NCBI GenBank assembly: GCA_013177895.1
Contig: JABLXV010000010.1
Span: forward strand, 1 to 64,000
DNA length: 64,000 bases
DNA from: Brevinematales bacterium
GTDB taxonomy: Bacteria; Spirochaetota; Brevinematia; Brevinematales; GWF1-51-8
Direction of reading: 5' to 3'
The position numbers were made by a program, and so were the translations under genes. The notes under the pieces were generated by a model. The model saw only the letters and a list, made by a program, of their open reading frames with translations. It was not told where the DNA came from and did not search any database. Below are positions 1-23,407 of the stretch, in pieces (the first letter of the stretch is position 1; every line of letters starts with the position of its first letter).

Positions 1-182
1 CTTTAGATACTACGACCATGAAAGACCGCACCAGAGCCTGGGTTATAAGCCGCCGGCTTCGATATACTTTTCGCCTGTTGACAAAACCGGAAAGGCGGCT
101 TAGAATGACTGATGTAAGAAAAGAGCACAGCAAGATTCAACTTAACTTGCCCCTAAATCTGTCCAAACACAGGGGCGCACCT
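1..182 (+). mobile_element. Right end of an IS3-family insertion sequence (cut by window edge)
   Basis: The segment holds the last codons of an IS3-type transposase, followed by a short non-coding stretch ending near position 182 in a GGGGCGCACC-like end. That is typical of the right inverted repeat of IS150-group elements. The left end and most of the transposase lie outside the window, so the inverted repeat cannot be paired here and the exact boundary is inferred. Confidence 0.5.
2..103 (+). CDS. IS3-family transposase, C-terminal fragment (window edge)
   Basis: The frame is open from the first base to a TAG at 101-103 and encodes 33 residues. They contain the phrase YDHERPHQSLGYKPPA, which is the hallmark C-terminus of IS3/IS150-type DDE (rve) integrase domains, just after the catalytic glutamate. 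The motif is seen directly; the family assignment is from known IS3 orfB proteins. Whether the upstream part is intact cannot be judged. Confidence 0.8.
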   Translation, partial: FRYYDHERPHQSLGYKPPASIYFSPVDKTGKAA

Positions 183-5202: not shown

Positions 5203-5721
5203 ATGGAAAAAATAGAAAGTTCTGTCAGTGTGTACGATTTCTCCGCGAAAACCATCACCGGAGAAAATAAGGATTTGTCTTCATATCAGGGGAAAGTGTT
5301 GATGATCGTCAATACCGCGAGTCTCTGCGGGTTTACGCCGCAGTACGCCGGCCTGCAGGAACTTTACCGGAAATACCGTTCGGACGGCCTCGAGATACTG
5401 GGATTCCCCTCCGACCAGTTCGCCCATCAGGAACCGGGTACCGACGGGGAGATACTCAAATTCACGAAGGAAAAGTACGGGGTGGAGTTCCAGATGTTTT
5501 CGAAGATCGAGGTGAACGGCGCGGGCGCGCATCCTCTCTATCAATGGCTGACCACCGCCGCGCGGGGGTTTATGGGCACCAAGGCGATCAAGTGGAATTT
5601 TACCAAGTTCCTGTTCGGCCGCAGGGGTAACTTATTCAAACGTTACTCGTCCCAGACCGAACCGTCCGCGATAGAGAAGGATATCATCGCGCTGATAGGA
5701 CTTGTGGATTTTTTTAACTAA
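5203..5721 (+). CDS. Glutathione peroxidase family (cysteine type), with a CRISPR-repeat-encoded C-terminus
   Basis: The 172-residue protein reduces peroxides, probably with thioredoxin because the active site is Cys rather than selenocysteine. The catalytic set is visible: C42 in NTASLCGFTPQY, Q76 in HQEPG and W131-N132 in KWNFTKF. A GGAGG ribosome site precedes the ATG. The last seven residues (GLVDFFN, 166-172) and the stop codon lie inside the first, degenerate CRISPR repeat (5694-5729). The ancestral C-terminus was therefore replaced or extended. The family usually ends near residue 160-165, so the enzyme is probably functional. Confidence 0.93.
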   Translation: MEKIESSVSVYDFSAKTITGENKDLSSYQGKVLMIVNTASLCGFTPQYAGLQELYRKYRSDGLEILGFPSDQFAHQEPGTDGEILKFTKEKYGVEFQMFSKIEVNGAGAHPLYQWLTTAARGFMGTKAIKWNFTKFLFGRRGNLFKRYSSQTEPSAIEKDIIALIGLVDFFN

Positions 5722-6652
5722 GGTATAATCGAGATACAAATCAAATCGATCATATCGAGGCTGGGACTTGTGGATTTTTTTAACTAAGGTATAATTCGAT
5801 AACCTCCTTCACCTGATCGTCCGTTGCTGGGACTTGTGGATTTTTTTAACTAAGGTATAATTTTAAAAATGTCGCCGTTACAGTATTCAATGCTGGGACT
5901 TGTGGATTTTTTTAACTAAGGTATAATTCCGGCCGTCACGTCCTATATATTTTACAAGCTGGGACTTGTGGATTTTTTTAACTAAGGTATAATAGGTTTT
6001 TTGCGTTCGTGATCGCGGTCTTCGCTGGGACTTGTGGATTTTTTTAACTAAGGTATAATCATGTTTAATTCTTTTGCTATTTCTTCGCAGCTGGGACTTG
6101 TGGATTTTTTTAACTAAGGTATAATCATGCCCAAACAATGGCAGTAGAATTTAACGCTGGGACTTGTGGATTTTTTTAACTAAGGTATAATCCGCCGGAG
6201 TGAGGAGTATTTCTCCCCGAGCTGGGACTTGTGGATTTTTTTAACTAAGGTATAATAGAAGTCAGTTTATCAACGTCACGGATAAGGCTGGGACTTGTGG
6301 ATTTTTTTAACTAAGGTATAATAAACTGTCGGGCGCGCCCGACACTTTTTTCGCTGGGACTTGTGGATTTTTTTAACTAAGGTATAATATGTGTGGGTTT
6401 TATTGCCGCGCGACATTTGCTGGGACTTGTGGATTTTTTTAACTAAGGTATAATGCGATCTGCGTGGATGTGCACGTGCACCGGGCTGGGACTTGTGGAT
6501 TTTTTTAACTAAGGTATAATAAACGGATTGGTTTTCCAGAAGATCGATTTGCTGGGACTTGTGGATTTTTTTAACTAAGGTATAATATCATTAAGGATTT
6601 CCCCATCGTAGAATGAGCTGGGACTTGTGGATTTTTTTAACTAAGGTATAAT
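5694..6652 (+). CRISPR. Type II-C CRISPR array: 15 repeats of 36 bp, 14 spacers
   Basis: Fourteen identical 36-bp repeats start at 5760, 5826, 5892, 5958, 6024, 6090, 6156, 6221, 6287, 6353, 6419, 6485, 6551 and 6617. They begin GCTGGGACTTGTGGAT and end AAGGTATAAT. A degenerate first repeat (5694-5729) matches over its last 32 bp. Spacers are 30 bp, with one of 29 (6192-6220). The plus strand is the crRNA strand: the repeat 5' half pairs with the tracrRNA anti-repeat near cas9. Each repeat carries TTGTGG (repeat bases 9-14) and a perfect TATAAT (31-36) 16 bp apart. This is the internal-promoter layout known from Neisseria and Campylobacter II-C arrays. Starts about 7 nt into a spacer would give roughly 24-nt guides. 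Confidence 0.98.
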
Positions 6653-6709: not shown

Positions 6710-7048
6710 CTAGAATAATAAGAGTTGATCCGGCGGATCTTCGGCCTTTTTTTTCGTTCGCCCGTAAAATACTTCCATATCGCCGAATTGTTTATCGGTA
6801 ATCATGATCAATCTGACCTGCCCTTCTGTGGGAATAATCTGTTTGATTCGGTTTGCATAGGTTTGGCAGTTTTCTCTGGAGGTCGTGTAACGCGCATAGA
6901 CAGAGTATTGAAGCATGGAAAAACCTTCAGCTAATAGCCTTCTTCTGAAAGTTGTATAAGCTTTACGCTGACGGTGTTCCATAACGGGCAGATCGAATAT
7001 GACGAATAACCACATACCTTTGTATTCCGACGGTATTTCCCGTTTCAT
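6710..7048 (-). CDS. cas2: CRISPR-associated endonuclease Cas2
   Basis: Cas2 partners Cas1 in spacer integration. The protein has the type II Cas2 core GMWLFVIFDLPVMEHRQRK with the conserved Asp after the first strand, then RRRLLAEGFSMLQYSVYAR. The start chosen here (MKREIPSEYKG) gives 112 residues, the usual length. A longer reading to 7120 adds 24 residues with no family match and overlaps cas1 by 32 bp; neither start has a strong ribosome site. It is the last gene of the cas9-cas1-cas2 operon and faces the array across a 57-bp gap. Confidence 0.93.
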   Translation of the reverse strand: MKREIPSEYKGMWLFVIFDLPVMEHRQRKAYTTFRRRLLAEGFSMLQYSVYARYTTSRENCQTYANRIKQIIPTEGQVRLIMITDKQFGDMEVFYGRTKKKAEDPPDQLLLF

Positions 7049-7088
7049 ATGATTTATTTTCGGATAATGATTTATAGAATATAAGTGT

Positions 7089-7985
7089 TTATACGATGAG
7101 CGATTCAGGTAAAACGACATCCTTTCTCTTTTTCTCGAATATATTGAATACGGAAACCGTCAATTTAGTTAAAGCGTCAAAGATAGAAATATTTTCCTTT
7201 TTCATTCTTACGGACCCGGTAAGTATTTCCAGAATTCTTCTTTTTGTATCCTTATCTACTTCTTCGAAGGGGCTTTTTTCATTGAGTAGCTCGAATACTT
7301 TTTTATCCACCATAGGGCGAAAAGGTTCCATAAGATCGTCGGCAAGGCGAAAAGCGTCATATTGATTATGATGGTGTATTCCGAAAGAAGGATGAAGCCC
7401 TGAGGAACAGATGGCCCGGGCAGTACATGCGCGGAGAATAGTGTATCCGTAATTCAGAAAGCGGTTGTGGTCGCAGGCGTCTCTATCCCGCTTGAATTCT
7501 TTCCCGAACAATATTTTCCAATAAATTCGGGATGACTGCCCTTCGATGTTTTCAGGATCCCCCGACTGTACCAGTCCCGCCATTTGCTTCAGTCCGCCGT
7601 CCTGTTTGAGTTTATTAAATAATAACTCCGATTGGAAAAGAATTTTCTTCCGGACGATTTCTTTCCAGATATGTTTTTTTAACGGTAGCGAAGCGTTGAT
7701 CTGTGTGTCATAGTTCTTCGCCGCAGTAGTATGAACACCGACCGGGAGAAACATACCGGCAGGTAAATACCGGTTATCGCATAGTACCACCATGCCCCCG
7801 GATTGAATGATAGCTACAATCGCAGATTGGGTTATTGTGATTGCGGGATTGGACAGTAATAAAACGCCAACCTCTTCCACTGGAATGGTGTGCTTTTCGC
7901 CTTCATGTATCCTTATCTCGATTAAGCTGTTTGTCAGGTGTACATAAGCTCCAGTATCTGATAGCTCGATAATACGGTTAGTCAT
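7089..7985 (-). CDS. cas1: CRISPR-associated endonuclease/integrase Cas1 (type II)
   Basis: The 298-residue protein matches the length and layout of type II Cas1. Catalytic residues are visible: E148 (NIEGQSSRIYW), the histidine cluster H204-H206 (GIHHHNQYDAF) and the acidic D217/E220 (LADDLMEP). The N-terminal beta domain begins RIIELSDTGAYVHL. The start overlaps the cas9 stop in ATGACTAA, so it is probably translated by coupling. No csn2 or cas4 follows, which places the locus in subtype II-C. Confidence 0.96.
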   Translation of the reverse strand: MTNRIIELSDTGAYVHLTNSLIEIRIHEGEKHTIPVEEVGVLLLSNPAITITQSAIVAIIQSGGMVVLCDNRYLPAGMFLPVGVHTTAAKNYDTQINASLPLKKHIWKEIVRKKILFQSELLFNKLKQDGGLKQMAGLVQSGDPENIEGQSSRIYWKILFGKEFKRDRDACDHNRFLNYGYTILRACTARAICSSGLHPSFGIHHHNQYDAFRLADDLMEPFRPMVDKKVFELLNEKSPFEEVDKDTKRRILEILTGSVRMKKENISIFDALTKLTVSVFNIFEKKRKDVVLPESLIV

Positions 7986-10900
7986 TTGCGTATCGCACTT
8001 CGCCGAACGGGGTTAGTATTACTTTCCTACAGTTTGAAATACGTAAGGTATCAGGCATTTTTGAAAACCATTCTTTTGCTTCTTTAATATCTTTTTGTTT
8101 CCTAGCATCAAGAGATTTGACAAACATAATTTGAAGACTTTCCGGTATAGATCGAACTACAAAGAGTTCTCTTTTATCGTTCATATCCAATTCAATCATT
8201 GTTTTTTCATGAAGGCTGAATTTAAACTTCTTCCCTTCTCCAAAGTCGCGTAGGATCACAGGCTCGTGGTTCTTTTTTCTCCGATAAGCCTCGAACATCG
8301 ATACGCAATAACCTTCCCATTTGATTTCCTGCCCATTTTCGTCCAATACCGCTACAATTTCCATATGGTGATTGGATTCGTTTGCGACCCTGCGTAATCT
8401 ATCCCCGGATCCGATTGTAAACGTTTTTAAATTAGTCTCGATTATTACCGATTTAACGGGAATATTGATACCGTCTTTCCCCTCGATAACAGGAAGGTTG
8501 ACAGGGTCGGAAAATATTTTCTGCGGTTCCGCTTCACTCTTCTGCAGTAGTATCTGCTCGACTTTTCCTCTGATAAAGGAGTCCTTGATTTTCTGCACTT
8601 CATTTTTAGAAAGCGATTCCAGTTTCTTGCGGATAGTGACTTTCCCTTCTTCTCCGGTATCCCCGTAAAAGGTATCTGCGTGAAGTTTCCCGCTGACCTT
8701 ATTGCTGATGTGGTGAATCGGGATAATCGTTTCCACCTTTTTTTCCAGTTCGGAGAAGAATCCTTCCCACGGTTCGGCCTTTCCGGGAATCCTGGCCTTC
8801 CCGTAAATCCAGCTATGTTTGGCATAGTCCGCAAGTTCTTTGATCGAACGCCCGCTGGTCAGCGCGATGGCGACCGCATCCACAGCATGATGACGGTGAT
8901 CATCCCGGTTCTTTTTGTCGCCGCCCAAGGCTCGGTTCATCCCGTAATATCCGCGCAGATAGGCGGTAATCGCGCCCGAATTGCAGTATATCTTTCTATT
9001 TCCGTCTTCGTCCCATAATCCGCCATAAAGATATGATAGGTACTGCATGGCGAGTTTAGAAGCATAGCGGGTATCGTTCATATGCCGGTCGGTAAAGTCC
9101 TCGAAATAACTGGCATCGGCCATCATGAACCGGTCCAGCTTAATATCCCTGAATTTTCCCCTGAAACGGCTGACCCGTTCCTGTATAAGATTATATTTAT
9201 CGGGATTTGATATATATGCCTCGTAAGGCGTCTGGTCTCGTTTCACCGTGCGGTTCTCTTCATTATAGCAAAGTGTTTTATTAGCAAAAGAATCTTCGAG
9301 GCTCCTGCTGAGCGGAATAATATGCTCGATATCGAATTCCGGGGTAGGCCCGAAAAGAGCGGCGTGACTAATCGATTTCCCGGTATAAGGGCATTCCCAA
9401 TGGCTTTCTTCGGCAAGAAGGTATTTAGTGATCGTTTCACGCGACGGGTTCGTAATCCCGTTGCTTTCCAGATAGGCCTCCGCGCGTTTCCGCTCCTTCT
9501 CGTTCTCCCGGTTATCCTGAATCATCTTGGCGCGCCTTTCTTTGGACGCCTTCATCTCACGGGCAAGCTCAATGTGAATTTCCTGTGGGAGTCCGTATCG
9601 GGTAATAACCGCGTTCACACATCGTCTAACCTCTGTTAAACAGCGTTTGACTAACGGATTTGTTAAATTCTGCAGGCTCTTTTCCAGCATCGGTATTTGT
9701 TCGAGAATAGTCGTCTTTTGATGAAATTCGCCATATATATCCTTCACTGCCTCGGGGTAGGAAATCCCCTTTTTCATTCCGGGAAGTATTTTCTTCAGTG
9801 CCTTGAGCGATAATCCGCAGTACCCTTCTTCGAGTACTGCCTCACTGAGCAATTCGGCTTTTTCTGCCGTTAATCCCCATTTTGTCTTTCCTAAAGCTTT
9901 TAACCTCTCGATACTTTGAATGGAGTTGATATCGTGAAGGAGGTCCTCTTTTTGTACTCCCGTAAACGTTTCATATTCATCGCCGAATATCTGGGAAAGC
10001 ACATGATTGGTCTTGTTCCCTAATAGCCGTGTTTCGCCCCCCTCTTCAAAATTGATCTTGGTACCTTTTGCAGGGAGATTGAGGAGTTTTTTGGTTTCCG
10101 TAAGCGTCAGCCGATCGGTTTTATCAAGAGCCTTAAAAAGTATGTCACTTTCTTCATAGGACAGTTTCCGGCTCGGTTTCTTCTCCTCCATTATCCTCAG
10201 GTTATTCAGGGTTTGGAGAATCCTGAATTGCTGAGCCTCGATCCGGTACCACGGACAGCGCTTTGATGTTTTCTCATATTCGCACATTCCCACCAGATGG
10301 CGCGAACTTTTTAGAGGCCGCTGGAAGAATAGCGCGTCTTTGAGTTTGTTCTTATAATCTTCGTTTAGAAGTTGTGGATAGAATTGCCGTTGTTTTTCGA
10401 AGATGGTCTCGAATTCATCGAGGTACATATCCCTTCCGGTATATCTCCCCCTGATCCTTTTCTCCAAGGGATTGCTTTTCGAGTAATGCTCTCCGATTGT
10501 CCGATTGCCTGAGTTCTCGATTTCTTGATGTAGTTCTGATATTCCTTTTTTTACTTTTCCGTAGTCGTCCTGCTTTCTTAATTCCTTTCGATTGGATAAA
10601 AAGCCCCTACGTTGTGCGAGATGGTACAATACTCTTGCGAGTTCTTCAGGGGATAGTTGATGGTCGAGCGCGCGGGTGCGGAGATAGTACGGGATGATGT
10701 GGAAAAACTGCTTCGGATCGAAGGATTGGTCGAGATATTTTCCTACGGTTTCCTTATCGATCCGTTCGATAAATCCTTCCCTCGTTTCGCCTGACGGGAA
10801 TAAACCAATATTTTTCAGAAGATAATAAACTTTCAGTTTCCGGCGTCTTCTTCGATCCGATTGCCGCCTGATCTGGCGGGCGTTTCTCCTGTCGCTCGCG

Positions 10901-11070
10901 GCGGTGACCGGATTGGATGTCTCAAGGTCTTTCATTCCCGGATTGAATATCCTGACACCCATGCCAAGAATGGCTTTGGGATTCTTTTTACCGTCGTTTT
11001 GGATCACAGCCCACCCTAAGGAATTACTACCCAAATCCAGTCCTAGGATGTAATCTGATTTTTTATCCAT
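7978..11070 (-). CDS. cas9: Compact type II-C CRISPR effector nuclease Cas9
   Basis: The 1030-residue Cas9 is an RNA-guided DNA endonuclease loaded with crRNA and tracrRNA. All catalytic residues are present: RuvC-I D12 (GLDLGSNSLGWA), RuvC-II E501 (IHIELAREM), HNH H583 with N606 (FDIEHIIPLS) and RuvC-III H728/D731 (HRHHAVDAVAIA). The arginine-rich bridge helix spans about 60-80. The length is close to the Campylobacter and Neisseria II-C enzymes. The C-terminal PAM-interacting region (about 850-1030) has no recognised match, so the PAM is unknown. An ideal GGAGG site lies 6 bp before the ATG. The gene heads the cas9-cas1-cas2 operon, opposite in strand to the tracrRNA and array. Confidence 0.98.
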   Translation of the reverse strand: MDKKSDYILGLDLGSNSLGWAVIQNDGKKNPKAILGMGVRIFNPGMKDLETSNPVTAASDRRNARQIRRQSDRRRRRKLKVYYLLKNIGLFPSGETREGFIERIDKETVGKYLDQSFDPKQFFHIIPYYLRTRALDHQLSPEELARVLYHLAQRRGFLSNRKELRKQDDYGKVKKGISELHQEIENSGNRTIGEHYSKSNPLEKRIRGRYTGRDMYLDEFETIFEKQRQFYPQLLNEDYKNKLKDALFFQRPLKSSRHLVGMCEYEKTSKRCPWYRIEAQQFRILQTLNNLRIMEEKKPSRKLSYEESDILFKALDKTDRLTLTETKKLLNLPAKGTKINFEEGGETRLLGNKTNHVLSQIFGDEYETFTGVQKEDLLHDINSIQSIERLKALGKTKWGLTAEKAELLSEAVLEEGYCGLSLKALKKILPGMKKGISYPEAVKDIYGEFHQKTTILEQIPMLEKSLQNLTNPLVKRCLTEVRRCVNAVITRYGLPQEIHIELAREMKASKERRAKMIQDNRENEKERKRAEAYLESNGITNPSRETITKYLLAEESHWECPYTGKSISHAALFGPTPEFDIEHIIPLSRSLEDSFANKTLCYNEENRTVKRDQTPYEAYISNPDKYNLIQERVSRFRGKFRDIKLDRFMMADASYFEDFTDRHMNDTRYASKLAMQYLSYLYGGLWDEDGNRKIYCNSGAITAYLRGYYGMNRALGGDKKNRDDHRHHAVDAVAIALTSGRSIKELADYAKHSWIYGKARIPGKAEPWEGFFSELEKKVETIIPIHHISNKVSGKLHADTFYGDTGEEGKVTIRKKLESLSKNEVQKIKDSFIRGKVEQILLQKSEAEPQKIFSDPVNLPVIEGKDGINIPVKSVIIETNLKTFTIGSGDRLRRVANESNHHMEIVAVLDENGQEIKWEGYCVSMFEAYRRKKNHEPVILRDFGEGKKFKFSLHEKTMIELDMNDKRELFVVRSIPESLQIMFVKSLDARKQKDIKEAKEWFSKMPDTLRISNCRKVILTPFGEVRYAND

Positions 11071-11096
11071 TTATTCCTCCGAAAGTGAATATTCTA

Positions 11097-11125
11097 TTGA
11101 CTCTTTTTTTGAAAACAATTAGAAT
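11097..11125 (+). promoter_or_regulatory. Promoter of the tracrRNA
   Basis: TTGACT (11097-11102) and TAGAAT (11120-11125) are 17 bp apart, each 5 of 6 to sigma70 consensus. The expected start near 11132 is the first base of the anti-repeat. Confidence 0.7.
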
Positions 11126-11131
11126 AATACT

Positions 11132-11212
11132 ATCCACAAGCCCTAGTAAGGGTACACCACGCGGGCAAGTTCCTACGGGAAATCCCTCAGCGGCCTTCGG
11201 GCCGTTTTTTTT
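11132..11212 (+). ncRNA. tracrRNA of the type II-C system
   Basis: Bases 11132-11147 are the anti-repeat. They pair with the first 16 nt of the CRISPR repeat with 13 Watson-Crick pairs, two G-U pairs and one C-A mismatch. After it come short stem-loops, including GGGAAATCCC at 11178-11187, and a GC-rich tetraloop terminator. The predicted RNA is about 80 nt. It is divergent from cas9 and lies 60 bp upstream of its ATG. The pairing is seen directly; the 5' end is inferred from the promoter. Confidence 0.88.
11191..11212 (+). terminator. Intrinsic terminator of the tracrRNA
   Basis: CGGCC-TTCG-GGCCG (11191-11204) is followed by eight T residues, a textbook rho-independent terminator. It also serves as the last stem of the tracrRNA. 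Confidence 0.9.
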
Positions 11213-11216
11213 ATTT

Positions 11217-11244
11217 ATTATAACCCCTCAGGAATATTTGTCAA
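11217..11244 (-). promoter_or_regulatory. Perfect consensus promoter for the cas9-cas1-cas2 operon
   Basis: Read on the minus strand, TTGACA (11244-11239) and TATAAT (11222-11217) are both exact and 16 bp apart. The start would fall near 11210. The cas9 leader would then be about 140 nt and complementary to the complete tracrRNA. Confidence 0.65.
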
Positions 11245-11300: not shown

Positions 11301-12653
11301 CTAGGGCAGGGTGACCTGAATCGCCGCGCGGATTTCCTTGAGGATAGCCCCGTTGGTGGATTCCTTATTCAGCCATACGTCCGATACGGTGACTCCCCCG
11401 ATAATGCGATTGATCTGGTTGGTATCGGCGTATGCCCATGTGTCGTGCATGATATACGGGACATTGCCTACCTTGCCGAGGTACAGCATGATATGCCCCT
11501 TCTTGTAGATCAGCGAGGTCGCGGGCGGGAGTTTCAGGAGCGCGGGGATTTTCGCGTCATACGTCGCGTTCGTCTCGAACCTGCATATCAGCTTTCCGCA
11601 GAGGATTTGTTCCGACGTGTTGCGCGGGAGATAGATACCCGCGCACGCGAACACCTGCCAGATAAACCGCGAACAGTCCTGCTCGCCCCACATATCGCCC
11701 CATCCGTAGGGAGTATACAGCAGCCGGAACGCCTGATCGAGGATGACGCGCGGAGTATAGGGGAGATACCCCTTATGGACGTCGGATTTCTTGATATATG
11801 CGGGCTTGACCTCATACTCGCCGTTCTTGGTCTTGACCGGCACTTTAACCTTCCATACCCACGCGTTCGCCTCGCCGGTCAGCGGAAGGCGAGTCCCCAT
11901 TCGGACGAATTCGAACGGCTTGGTCAATCCCTTGTCCCAGTACAGGTCGGCCTTGGGGCTGGTCACGACGAGAAATAGTTCGGACGATATGTAATTTTTA
12001 AGCTGGGTGAGCGAGCAGTAAACTACTTTCGACGACTCGATCCAGCCCTCGGTCTGGTCTCCCCGGACGAATAGCCATTTTCCGTCCTTCGACTTATGCA
12101 TGATCGCGAGCGGGGTGCCCACCTCGGCGAGACTGAGCTGGAGACGGTCGAAATTCTCCTCCGGCTCGTTGAAAATCCCCTGCATGGTCGGCATAACGCG
12201 GAGATTCGCCATCGCGGTCACGAGACCGTACTTCAGCTTGACCTTATACGGAAACCACTCCGCGTTCATATTTTTTTTAACATCCATGAGATTTGTCAAT
12301 GTGATTTTTTGCCCCGCCGACACGAGCGGCCCGATATCGTTAAGGATATAATAAAAATTGCCCCATATCAGGTTTTTAACGGTTTTCCCCTTTTTGGTCG
12401 GGCCGTAGTCAGGGATAGATGCGACCCCTGTTTGCGCGATGATGTACTGGTTGAGTTTACTGATCTGCTTGGATGTTAGGATGGCTTTATCGGGCGAGGG
12501 GTGTATGCCTATCCAGAATCCCGCCGACATCATCTCGGGTCTGATCCCCGGCAGGATTGCGGGGGCGGTCGTGGACGGCTGAATATTCGCGGAATAGACC
12601 GCCGCGATAAATAGAACGGTTACTGTAGGAATATAAAGTATTATCCGGCGCAT
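11301..12653 (-). CDS. Periplasmic SH3-NlpC/P60 family cell-wall hydrolase (paralogue 1)
   Basis: The 450-residue protein has an N-terminal signal peptide, an N-terminal stabilising domain, SH3b-like regions in the middle (GTPLAIMHKSKDGKWLFVRGDQTEGWI) and a C-terminal NlpC/P60 papain-fold domain. The nucleophile is C327 in EQDCSRFIWQ; the histidine is in KGHIMLYLG, followed by YIMHDTW. Such enzymes cleave peptidoglycan stem peptides. A GGAGGG site precedes the ATG. A paralogue with the same layout lies at 20162-21517. The two share GYTPR, AFRLLYTPYGW and the active-site blocks. Confidence 0.9.
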   Translation of the reverse strand: MRRIILYIPTVTVLFIAAVYSANIQPSTTAPAILPGIRPEMMSAGFWIGIHPSPDKAILTSKQISKLNQYIIAQTGVASIPDYGPTKKGKTVKNLIWGNFYYILNDIGPLVSAGQKITLTNLMDVKKNMNAEWFPYKVKLKYGLVTAMANLRVMPTMQGIFNEPEENFDRLQLSLAEVGTPLAIMHKSKDGKWLFVRGDQTEGWIESSKVVYCSLTQLKNYISSELFLVVTSPKADLYWDKGLTKPFEFVRMGTRLPLTGEANAWVWKVKVPVKTKNGEYEVKPAYIKKSDVHKGYLPYTPRVILDQAFRLLYTPYGWGDMWGEQDCSRFIWQVFACAGIYLPRNTSEQILCGKLICRFETNATYDAKIPALLKLPPATSLIYKKGHIMLYLGKVGNVPYIMHDTWAYADTNQINRIIGGVTVSDVWLNKESTNGAILKEIRAAIQVTLP

Positions 12654-12700: not shown

Positions 12701-12858
12701 TCGCAACCCCTGCGACCCCACGGAAGGGGAAGCCCCGCAGCGACATGGATGTCAAGATGCGGGGCGGAGGGCTAACCCCATTATTAAAATTGCTGATATT
12801 ATAGAGAAATAGCCTGCGGCAAGGTAAATAGCCAAGAATTAGCGTACGCAGTACCTGC
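12701..12858 (+). repeat. Dispersed repeat copy A (106 bp) carrying a 52-bp palindromic insert
   Basis: Removing bases 12715-12766 leaves 106 bp that align without gaps to the reverse complement of 52897-53002. The flanks TCGCAAC...CTGCG and GTACGCAGTACCTGC are conserved. The 52-bp insert has a stem GCCCCGCA/TGCGGGGC around the core GACATGGATGTCAAG. The intergenic region 12654-13146 holds these repeats and no credible gene. Confidence 0.8.
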
Positions 12859-12992: not shown

Positions 12993-13080
12993 TACGCAGT
13001 ACTACTGCGACCCCGCGGAAGGGGAAGCCCCGCAGCGACATGGATGTCAAGATGCGGGACGCAGGCTAACCCCATTATAT
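12993..13080 (+). repeat. Dispersed repeat copy C (partial) with the same 52-bp insert
   Basis: It starts with GTACGCAGTAC, then CTGCG, then a 52-bp element at 13010-13061 almost identical to that in copy A, then CAGGCTAACCCC. The insert sits at the same position within the host repeat as in copy A. It lies between copy A and the sensor kinase gene. Confidence 0.75.
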
Positions 13081-22611: not shown

Positions 22612-23358
22612 ATGAAAGTTAAAGTTTTAGCGGTTATGGCTTTATTGACGATGGGTTTCATGGTCGGGTGTGATATTACGATTACGGACACTACTCCCCC
22701 GAATCCCGATACGATTGTCATGGATTTCGGCGGCACGGGCGCGGGTGTTTTCTGTTTCTCTAACTCAACCTCGCAGTACACGTTAAAGACATTTATAATG
22801 GATACCGTATTCGGTGAATGGAATGATAAGGGTTTCACCAATGTAGATGTCGCTCCGGGAAAAACCGGGATGATTATCAATCTGGATGCCGGTACGTATT
22901 ATTTCTGCATGGAAATGCATAATAATTCCTACAGCTTCGATTTTACCATGTCTAACTCAATTTATAACACCATAATTACTACCTCGAATACGAACTTTGC
23001 CTCGATTGAGCCCGCATGGATTGGAATCACCAACAGTTCATGTTATTCTGTTAGTAATTTTATTATTTTAGATGCGTCTACTTTTGATTTTTGTTCTATC
23101 TTAATTGAAGGGACTGATGATGCAAAAGCAAATCATATTGATGCTGGATATACACATACCGCCGCTCCTTATTACACAAACTGGTATGAAATGATTCCAG
23201 CGGAAATTCCTGCTGGTATGTATAATATATTAACTGTGAATGGAATTTTAACAAAGTATTTTCTCACTAACTCTTCAGTAAGTTTACAAGGGAGAAAAAC
23301 TAATGCATTCACAATGACCTCTGTTCCTTTCTTAAACGGTACTTGGTATTGGAATTAA
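22612..23358 (+). CDS. Putative lipoprotein of unknown function
   Basis: The 248-residue protein has a lipoprotein signal (MKVKVLAVMALLTMGFMVGC, lipobox FMVGC, C20). The mature part is rich in Asn, Ser and Thr with no recognised domain. Two similar halves suggest repeated beta-sandwich modules: TYYFCMEMHNNSY in the first and AGMYNILTVNG in the second. The last third of the gene is clearly more AT-rich than its start, which may reflect transfer or relaxed selection. An AGGAGG site precedes the ATG and a strong terminator follows. Confidence 0.7.
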   Translation: MKVKVLAVMALLTMGFMVGCDITITDTTPPNPDTIVMDFGGTGAGVFCFSNSTSQYTLKTFIMDTVFGEWNDKGFTNVDVAPGKTGMIINLDAGTYYFCMEMHNNSYSFDFTMSNSIYNTIITTSNTNFASIEPAWIGITNSSCYSVSNFIILDASTFDFCSILIEGTDDAKANHIDAGYTHTAAPYYTNWYEMIPAEIPAGMYNILTVNGILTKYFLTNSSVSLQGRKTNAFTMTSVPFLNGTWYWN

Positions 23359-23377
23359 TCGATTACTAAATAACAAA

Positions 23378-23407
23378 GGCCCCGCATCGAGCGGGGTCTT
23401 TTTTTTT
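23378..23407 (+). terminator. Intrinsic terminator of the lipoprotein gene
   Basis: GGCCCCGC (23378-23385) pairs with GCGGGGTC (23391-23398) around a 5-nt loop, followed by a long T-run. Confidence 0.9.

Follow-up and report, generated by a model that had tools for sequence, protein, structure and literature searches.

A putative cas9 promoter beyond the tracrRNA gene in the type II-C CRISPR locus of a Brevinematales bacterium

Introduction

In a type II-C locus of clustered regularly interspaced short palindromic repeats (CRISPR) from a Brevinematales bacterium, the gene for the trans-activating CRISPR RNA (tracrRNA) lies directly upstream of cas9 and is read in the opposite direction. This layout raises the question of where transcription of cas9 starts and whether the resulting messenger RNA (mRNA) runs through the tracrRNA gene as antisense. 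The window analysed here is the whole stretch of 64,000 nucleotides (nt) from contig JABLXV010000010.1 (assembly GCA_013177895.1, positions 1 to 64,000). We consider it likely, with a probability of about 0.72, that the cas9-cas1-cas2 operon is driven mainly from a sigma-70 promoter past the 3' end of the tracrRNA, and that the cas9 leader is a full antisense of the tracrRNA.

Promoters around the tracrRNA gene

The argument starts from the following elements:

11217 to 11244, minus strand: distal cas9 promoter, TTGACA-N16-TATAAT (12/12)
11132 to 11212, plus strand, divergent from cas9: tracrRNA
11097 to 11125, plus strand: tracrRNA promoter, TTGACT-N17-TAGAAT (10/12)
11091 to 11118, minus strand: weak rival proximal cas9 promoter, TTGTTT-N16-TAGAAT (8/12)

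The distal promoter lies 5 nt past the tracrRNA, and re-reading the sequence bore out the perfect match that an initial annotation of this DNA had reported. Perfect promoters (TTGACA-N16-18-TATAAT) occur 89 times in the organism's own genome, whereas the same pattern read backwards occurs 0 times; the consensus is thus in real use, and a chance occurrence at this site is improbable. Moreover, about 1 in 200 dinucleotide shuffles of the 158-nt stretch past the tracrRNA attains 12/12. The tracrRNA promoter was also found as it had been described, and related loci have one at the corresponding position. Its pattern (TTGACN-N17-TAGAAT) is present 30 times in the genome versus 0 times in the control, although a single sequence accounts for 13 of these sites. 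The sequence TTGACAAAACCGGAAAGGCGGCTTAGAAT (window 78 to 106, plus strand) has 13 genome copies, often equidistant from a contig end, and is probably a multicopy element that breaks the assembly.

Between the tracrRNA and the cas9 ATG, the 8/12 site is the only promoter candidate. Its class is at background in this genome, with 35 sites, or 28 once those of the TTGAC type are removed, versus 22 in the control. Furthermore, 41% of shuffles of this interval attain its best score. Since the distal promoter is the only convincing one, the cas9 leader should be antisense to the tracrRNA, unless a start in the 60-nt gap lacks a recognisable sigma-70 promoter. Weaker minus-strand boxes lie upstream (ATAACA-N17-TATAAT, 11272 to 11244), and starting there would leave the antisense overlap unchanged. 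The search for terminators found none on the minus strand from the upstream gene (11301 to 12653, minus strand) to cas9, so that read-through from this gene would likewise be antisense to the tracrRNA.

The tracrRNA and its shortened antirepeat

The tracrRNA was recognised by a covariance model of its relatives, by its antirepeat match and by its fold. It contains two further elements:

11132 to 11146, plus strand: shortened antirepeat ATCCACAAGCCCTAG, 13/15 match, 15 pairs with the repeat of the CRISPR RNA (crRNA)
11189 to 11212, plus strand: intrinsic terminator, also delimited as 11189 to 11206, one-way because the minus strand has no U-run

The covariance model was built from the tracrRNA bodies of 14 relatives, with the window sequence left out, and matches window positions 11144 to 11212 (plus strand) with 38.8 bits (E value 8.5e-7), which is the sole good hit in 64 kilobases. 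The second-best match (23276 to 23405, plus strand; 15.2 bits, E value 0.11) is probably due to chance; this stretch begins with CAGTAAG and has a terminator-like hairpin at its end. The tracrRNA matched no Rfam family, and a search across the genome found neither a second tracrRNA copy nor a second antirepeat. From these sequence features, the element at 11132 to 11212 is the tracrRNA of the locus. A tracr-L form was considered and rejected, as the stretch near 11085 to 11131 has no repeat-like match to the 15-nt core when up to 3 mismatches are allowed.

The duplex of crRNA and tracrRNA in the window consists of 15 pairs (-22 kcal/mol), compared with 24 to 36 pairs (-39 to -65 kcal/mol) in 28 relatives.

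Predicted geometry of the antisense leader

When starts are placed about 7 nt past each -10 box, the tracrRNA is predicted to begin at about 11132 and the cas9 mRNA at about 11210. This gives:

11071 to 11210, minus strand: predicted cas9 5' leader, about 140 nt long and complementary to the tracrRNA from 11132 to about 11210
11076 to 11080, minus strand: cas9 Shine-Dalgarno sequence GGAGG, about 50 nt outside the tracrRNA-complementary stretch

The complementarity of this leader to the tracrRNA, which the initial annotation had proposed, follows from the sequence. An mRNA from the distal promoter would be perfectly complementary over about 80 nt, possibly excluding the last few U's of the tracrRNA, and the two would pair (-175 kcal/mol) far more strongly than crRNA and tracrRNA do. 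As the ribosome-binding site of cas9 lies outside the overlap, pairing cannot mask it, and any effect would require cleavage or transcriptional interference; for the same reason, the tracrRNA should be harmed more than the mRNA. The initial annotation is also right that transcription from either promoter passes through the other transcript, yet the relation is asymmetric. Polymerases from the cas9 promoter would cross and disturb the tracrRNA promoter, whereas those transcribing the tracrRNA would halt at its terminator before they reach the cas9 promoter.

The cas operon and the CRISPR array

The window holds a complete type II-C locus with all three cas genes on the minus strand:

7978 to 11070, minus strand: cas9, 1030 amino acids (TIGR01865, 713 bits)
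7089 to 7985, minus strand: cas1 of type II (TIGR03639, 270 bits)
6710 to 7120, minus strand: cas2 (TIGR01573, 68 bits)
5694 to 6652, plus strand (crRNA sense): CRISPR array of 15 repeats, the first degenerate; the repeat ends in GGTATAAT

The operon consists of cas9, cas1 and cas2 only, lacking csn2 and cas4, and the tracrRNA antirepeat is complementary to the array repeat, although over just the 15 pairs given above. The repeat (GCTGGGACTTGTGGATTTTTTTAACTAAGGTATAAT) carries at its 3' end a -10-like box that may act as a promoter, as in other type II-C systems. The genome also has a gene for RNase III.

Two observations concern the surroundings. A glutathione-peroxidase-like gene (5203 to 5721, plus strand) runs at its 3' end into the degenerate first repeat (5694 to 5721), which thus codes for the last residues of the gene product (GLVDFFN, stop). 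Two 61-nt direct copies (12710 to 12770 and 13005 to 13065), 95% identical and 295 nt apart, lie between an NlpC/P60-like gene and a histidine kinase gene.

Comparison with related II-C loci

Profile and pattern searches retrieved about 40 related loci, most of which presumably belong to the phylum of a planctomycete genome, a label that we take from one named record (L011) and from general knowledge. Two loci lie on contigs filed as viral, L091 (IMGVR_UViG_3300033149_005344) and L092 (IMGVR_UViG_3300018080_000328). Both are complete II-C loci, with 31 and 58 repeats, respectively, and either the CRISPR systems are carried by viruses or the contigs are host DNA filed in error. The antirepeats were compared in the 28 loci that have a readable array; in these, the tracrRNA is divergent and lies directly upstream of cas9. 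Type II-C loci from the spirochaete phylum (L041 to L058) were left out since they form another branch and no cas9-side tracrRNA was recognised in them by repeat complementarity. The repeats of L041 to L054, which are from the window's phylum, contain a near-complete sigma-70 promoter (TTGACC-N16-TATAAT; for instance GTTGCAGGTTGACCAGAAAAATTAATCAGTTATAAT).

In nearly all 28 loci, the alignment between the repeat and the complement of the antirepeat extends over essentially the full repeat. The match reaches 97% over repeat positions 22 to 36, with almost no G-U wobbles, and 75% over positions 1 to 21. The last six bases of the repeat, the -10-like box, are kept exactly in 24 of the 28 loci. The relatives thus carry a copy of this box that points at cas9, and an mRNA started from it would not overlap the tracrRNA. 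Conservation of the box could stem from RNA pairing alone, and the -35 part of the repeat-derived copy is weak in many relatives. The best tracrRNA promoter ends 6 to 8 nt ahead of the antirepeat in most of the 28 loci.

The window is the exception: its antirepeat is short, it no longer has the repeat-derived box, and its tracrRNA promoter is shifted inwards by about 20 nt. It thereby differs from the II-C loci with full-length antirepeats, having lost the copy of the repeat promoter that faces cas9. A Cas9 tree places a large clade as sister to the window; long antirepeats are found both in this clade and in the outgroups, so that the short antirepeat of the window is derived.

Candidate counterparts of the distal promoter were seen in three relatives. 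L114 and its sister L112 have weaker ones, TTGATA-N16-TATGAT at the corresponding place in the former and TTGATA-N16-TATTAT in the latter; the two loci share this promoter-like block but not the sequence flanking it. The block abuts the tracrRNA terminator and points at cas9, and both loci also have the repeat-derived proximal box. In L095, TTGACA-N18-TACATT lies at a greater distance. Judged by these matches, a distal cas9 promoter recurs among the relatives, yet it is uncommon.

Known systems with similar features

The closest known parallel is found in Streptococcus agalactiae, which has a type II-A system. There, the cas operon is driven by P2cas, a distal promoter at the 3' end of the tracrRNA; in strains lacking P1cas, this promoter is both required and sufficient for cas expression (PMC12216829). 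The corresponding antisense RNA of about 100 nt was first seen in 2015 and was first proposed to be regulatory; P2cas was formerly known as the srn036 promoter (PMC4448216). The putative promoter in the window likewise sits next to the 3' end of a tracrRNA gene that diverges from cas9 and is aimed at cas9 across this gene, which the predicted leader would traverse in antisense. After the loss of P1cas, P2cas is the sole cas promoter in CC-17 strains of S. agalactiae (PMC12216829). However, the S. agalactiae system has a tracr-L and its P2cas is repressed by CovR, whereas the window is of type II-C with a shortened antirepeat and has neither a tracr-L nor a known regulator. The passages covered report no effect of P2cas on the tracrRNA itself (PMC12216829).

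In Streptococcus pyogenes, tracr-L autorepresses cas9 as a DNA-binding guide, a finding cited in PMC12216829 and PMC11417352. By analogy, the tracrRNA locus could control cas9 expression in the window too, although its tracrRNA lacks the repeat-like 5' extension needed to form a tracr-L. The type II-C systems of Campylobacter jejuni and Neisseria meningitidis have a promoter inside each repeat; the repeats of C. jejuni have GGTAAAAT at their 3' end, and its crRNAs begin within the spacers (PMC3656092). These systems share with the window the -10 box at the repeat 3' end (GGTAAAAT versus GGTATAAT) and a set of only three cas genes, and crRNA starts inside the spacers would be expected for the window by analogy. 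The literature searched, with most subscription journals outside its coverage, contained no report of a repeat-promoter copy opposite the antirepeat that points at cas9. As far as sequence comparison goes, the layout in the window is real, it is unusual among its relatives, and a similar one is already known in Group B Streptococcus.

A possible mechanism and its weight

In our best reading, a repeat-derived proximal cas9 promoter was lost and a distal promoter took its place, a parallel to S. agalactiae, where P1cas was lost and P2cas is used. In the relatives, the -10-like box on the complement of the antirepeat could act as a proximal cas9 promoter; in the window, loss of the 5' half of the antirepeat together with the box would have left cas9 dependent on the distal promoter. 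RNase III would be expected to cut the duplex of about 80 base pairs, by which the whole tracrRNA would be destroyed and the mRNA leader merely trimmed. Rising cas9 transcription would then lower the tracrRNA supply, unless binding by Cas9 protects the tracrRNA. Dosage control by the overlap, as suggested in the initial annotation, is plausible from the arrangement, and we put a measurable effect of the overlap at somewhat less than an even chance.

Several points weigh against transcription of cas9 from the distal promoter. Its 16-nt spacer is slightly below the usual optimum. Conservation of both promoters across related II-C loci had been proposed as a check; it was seen for the position of the tracrRNA promoter but not for the distal cas9 promoter, as the distal stretch in most of 35 relatives contains no promoter above 9/12. 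Planctomycete promoters may deviate from the consensus, so that absence among these relatives is weak evidence. No relative of this cas9 was found in other genomes of the same genus. Moreover, start sites and promoter strengths are predictions, a proximal cas9 start that lacks a recognisable sigma-70 promoter is possible, and an abundant, constitutive tracrRNA would be hard to square with strong head-on transcription.

The alternative that survives best accepts the distal promoter as the driver of cas9 and holds that the overlap is neutral: excess tracrRNA would be bound by Cas9 at once, and the layout would be a by-product of the loss of the proximal promoter. The leader indeed contains no conserved regulatory feature, its fold is unremarkable (z-score -0.49), the ribosome-binding site lies beyond the overlap and most relatives have no conserved distal promoter. 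On the other hand, perfect complementarity over 80 base pairs in an organism with an RNase III gene, and one promoter firing across another, usually have some effect. We regard neutrality as a serious contender that nevertheless falls short of being the probable outcome.

The main cas9 start could also be located between the tracrRNA and the ATG, for instance at the proximal site (11118 to 11091), the distal promoter being minor or yielding antisense RNA only. The site has a good -10 box at a sensible place and would give a leader of about 13 nt with GGAGG, and it is in this interval that most relatives retain the exact repeat-derived box. However, that box is lost in the window, and the low score, the background frequency of its class and the ease with which shuffles equal it make such a start improbable. 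It is very improbable that transcription on the minus strand yields an independent regulatory antisense RNA against the tracrRNA, ending before cas9, given that no minus-strand terminator was found between 11210 and 11071 and that the counterpart promoter in S. agalactiae was later shown to drive the cas operon (PMC12216829).

Implications

If the distal promoter is used, every cas9 message carries a sequence antisense to the RNA on which Cas9 depends, and the supplies of nuclease and guide would be tied together in a simple, built-in way without recourse to tracr-L. It would also serve as a warning that moving or trimming the tracrRNA region may silence cas9. Beyond this locus, one may speculate that in II-C loci with a divergent tracrRNA the cas9 promoter is a copy of the CRISPR-repeat promoter opposite the antirepeat, and that loci which have lost it, the window among them, come to use a promoter past the tracrRNA, the cas9 mRNA becoming an antisense sink that couples the two doses; we consider a generalisation of this breadth rather unlikely. 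The suggested rule is that a locus with promoter-bearing repeats and a divergent tracrRNA obtains, through a full-length antirepeat, a promoter copy ahead of cas9 at no extra cost. If true, this rule would account for cas9 expression in minimal II-C systems.
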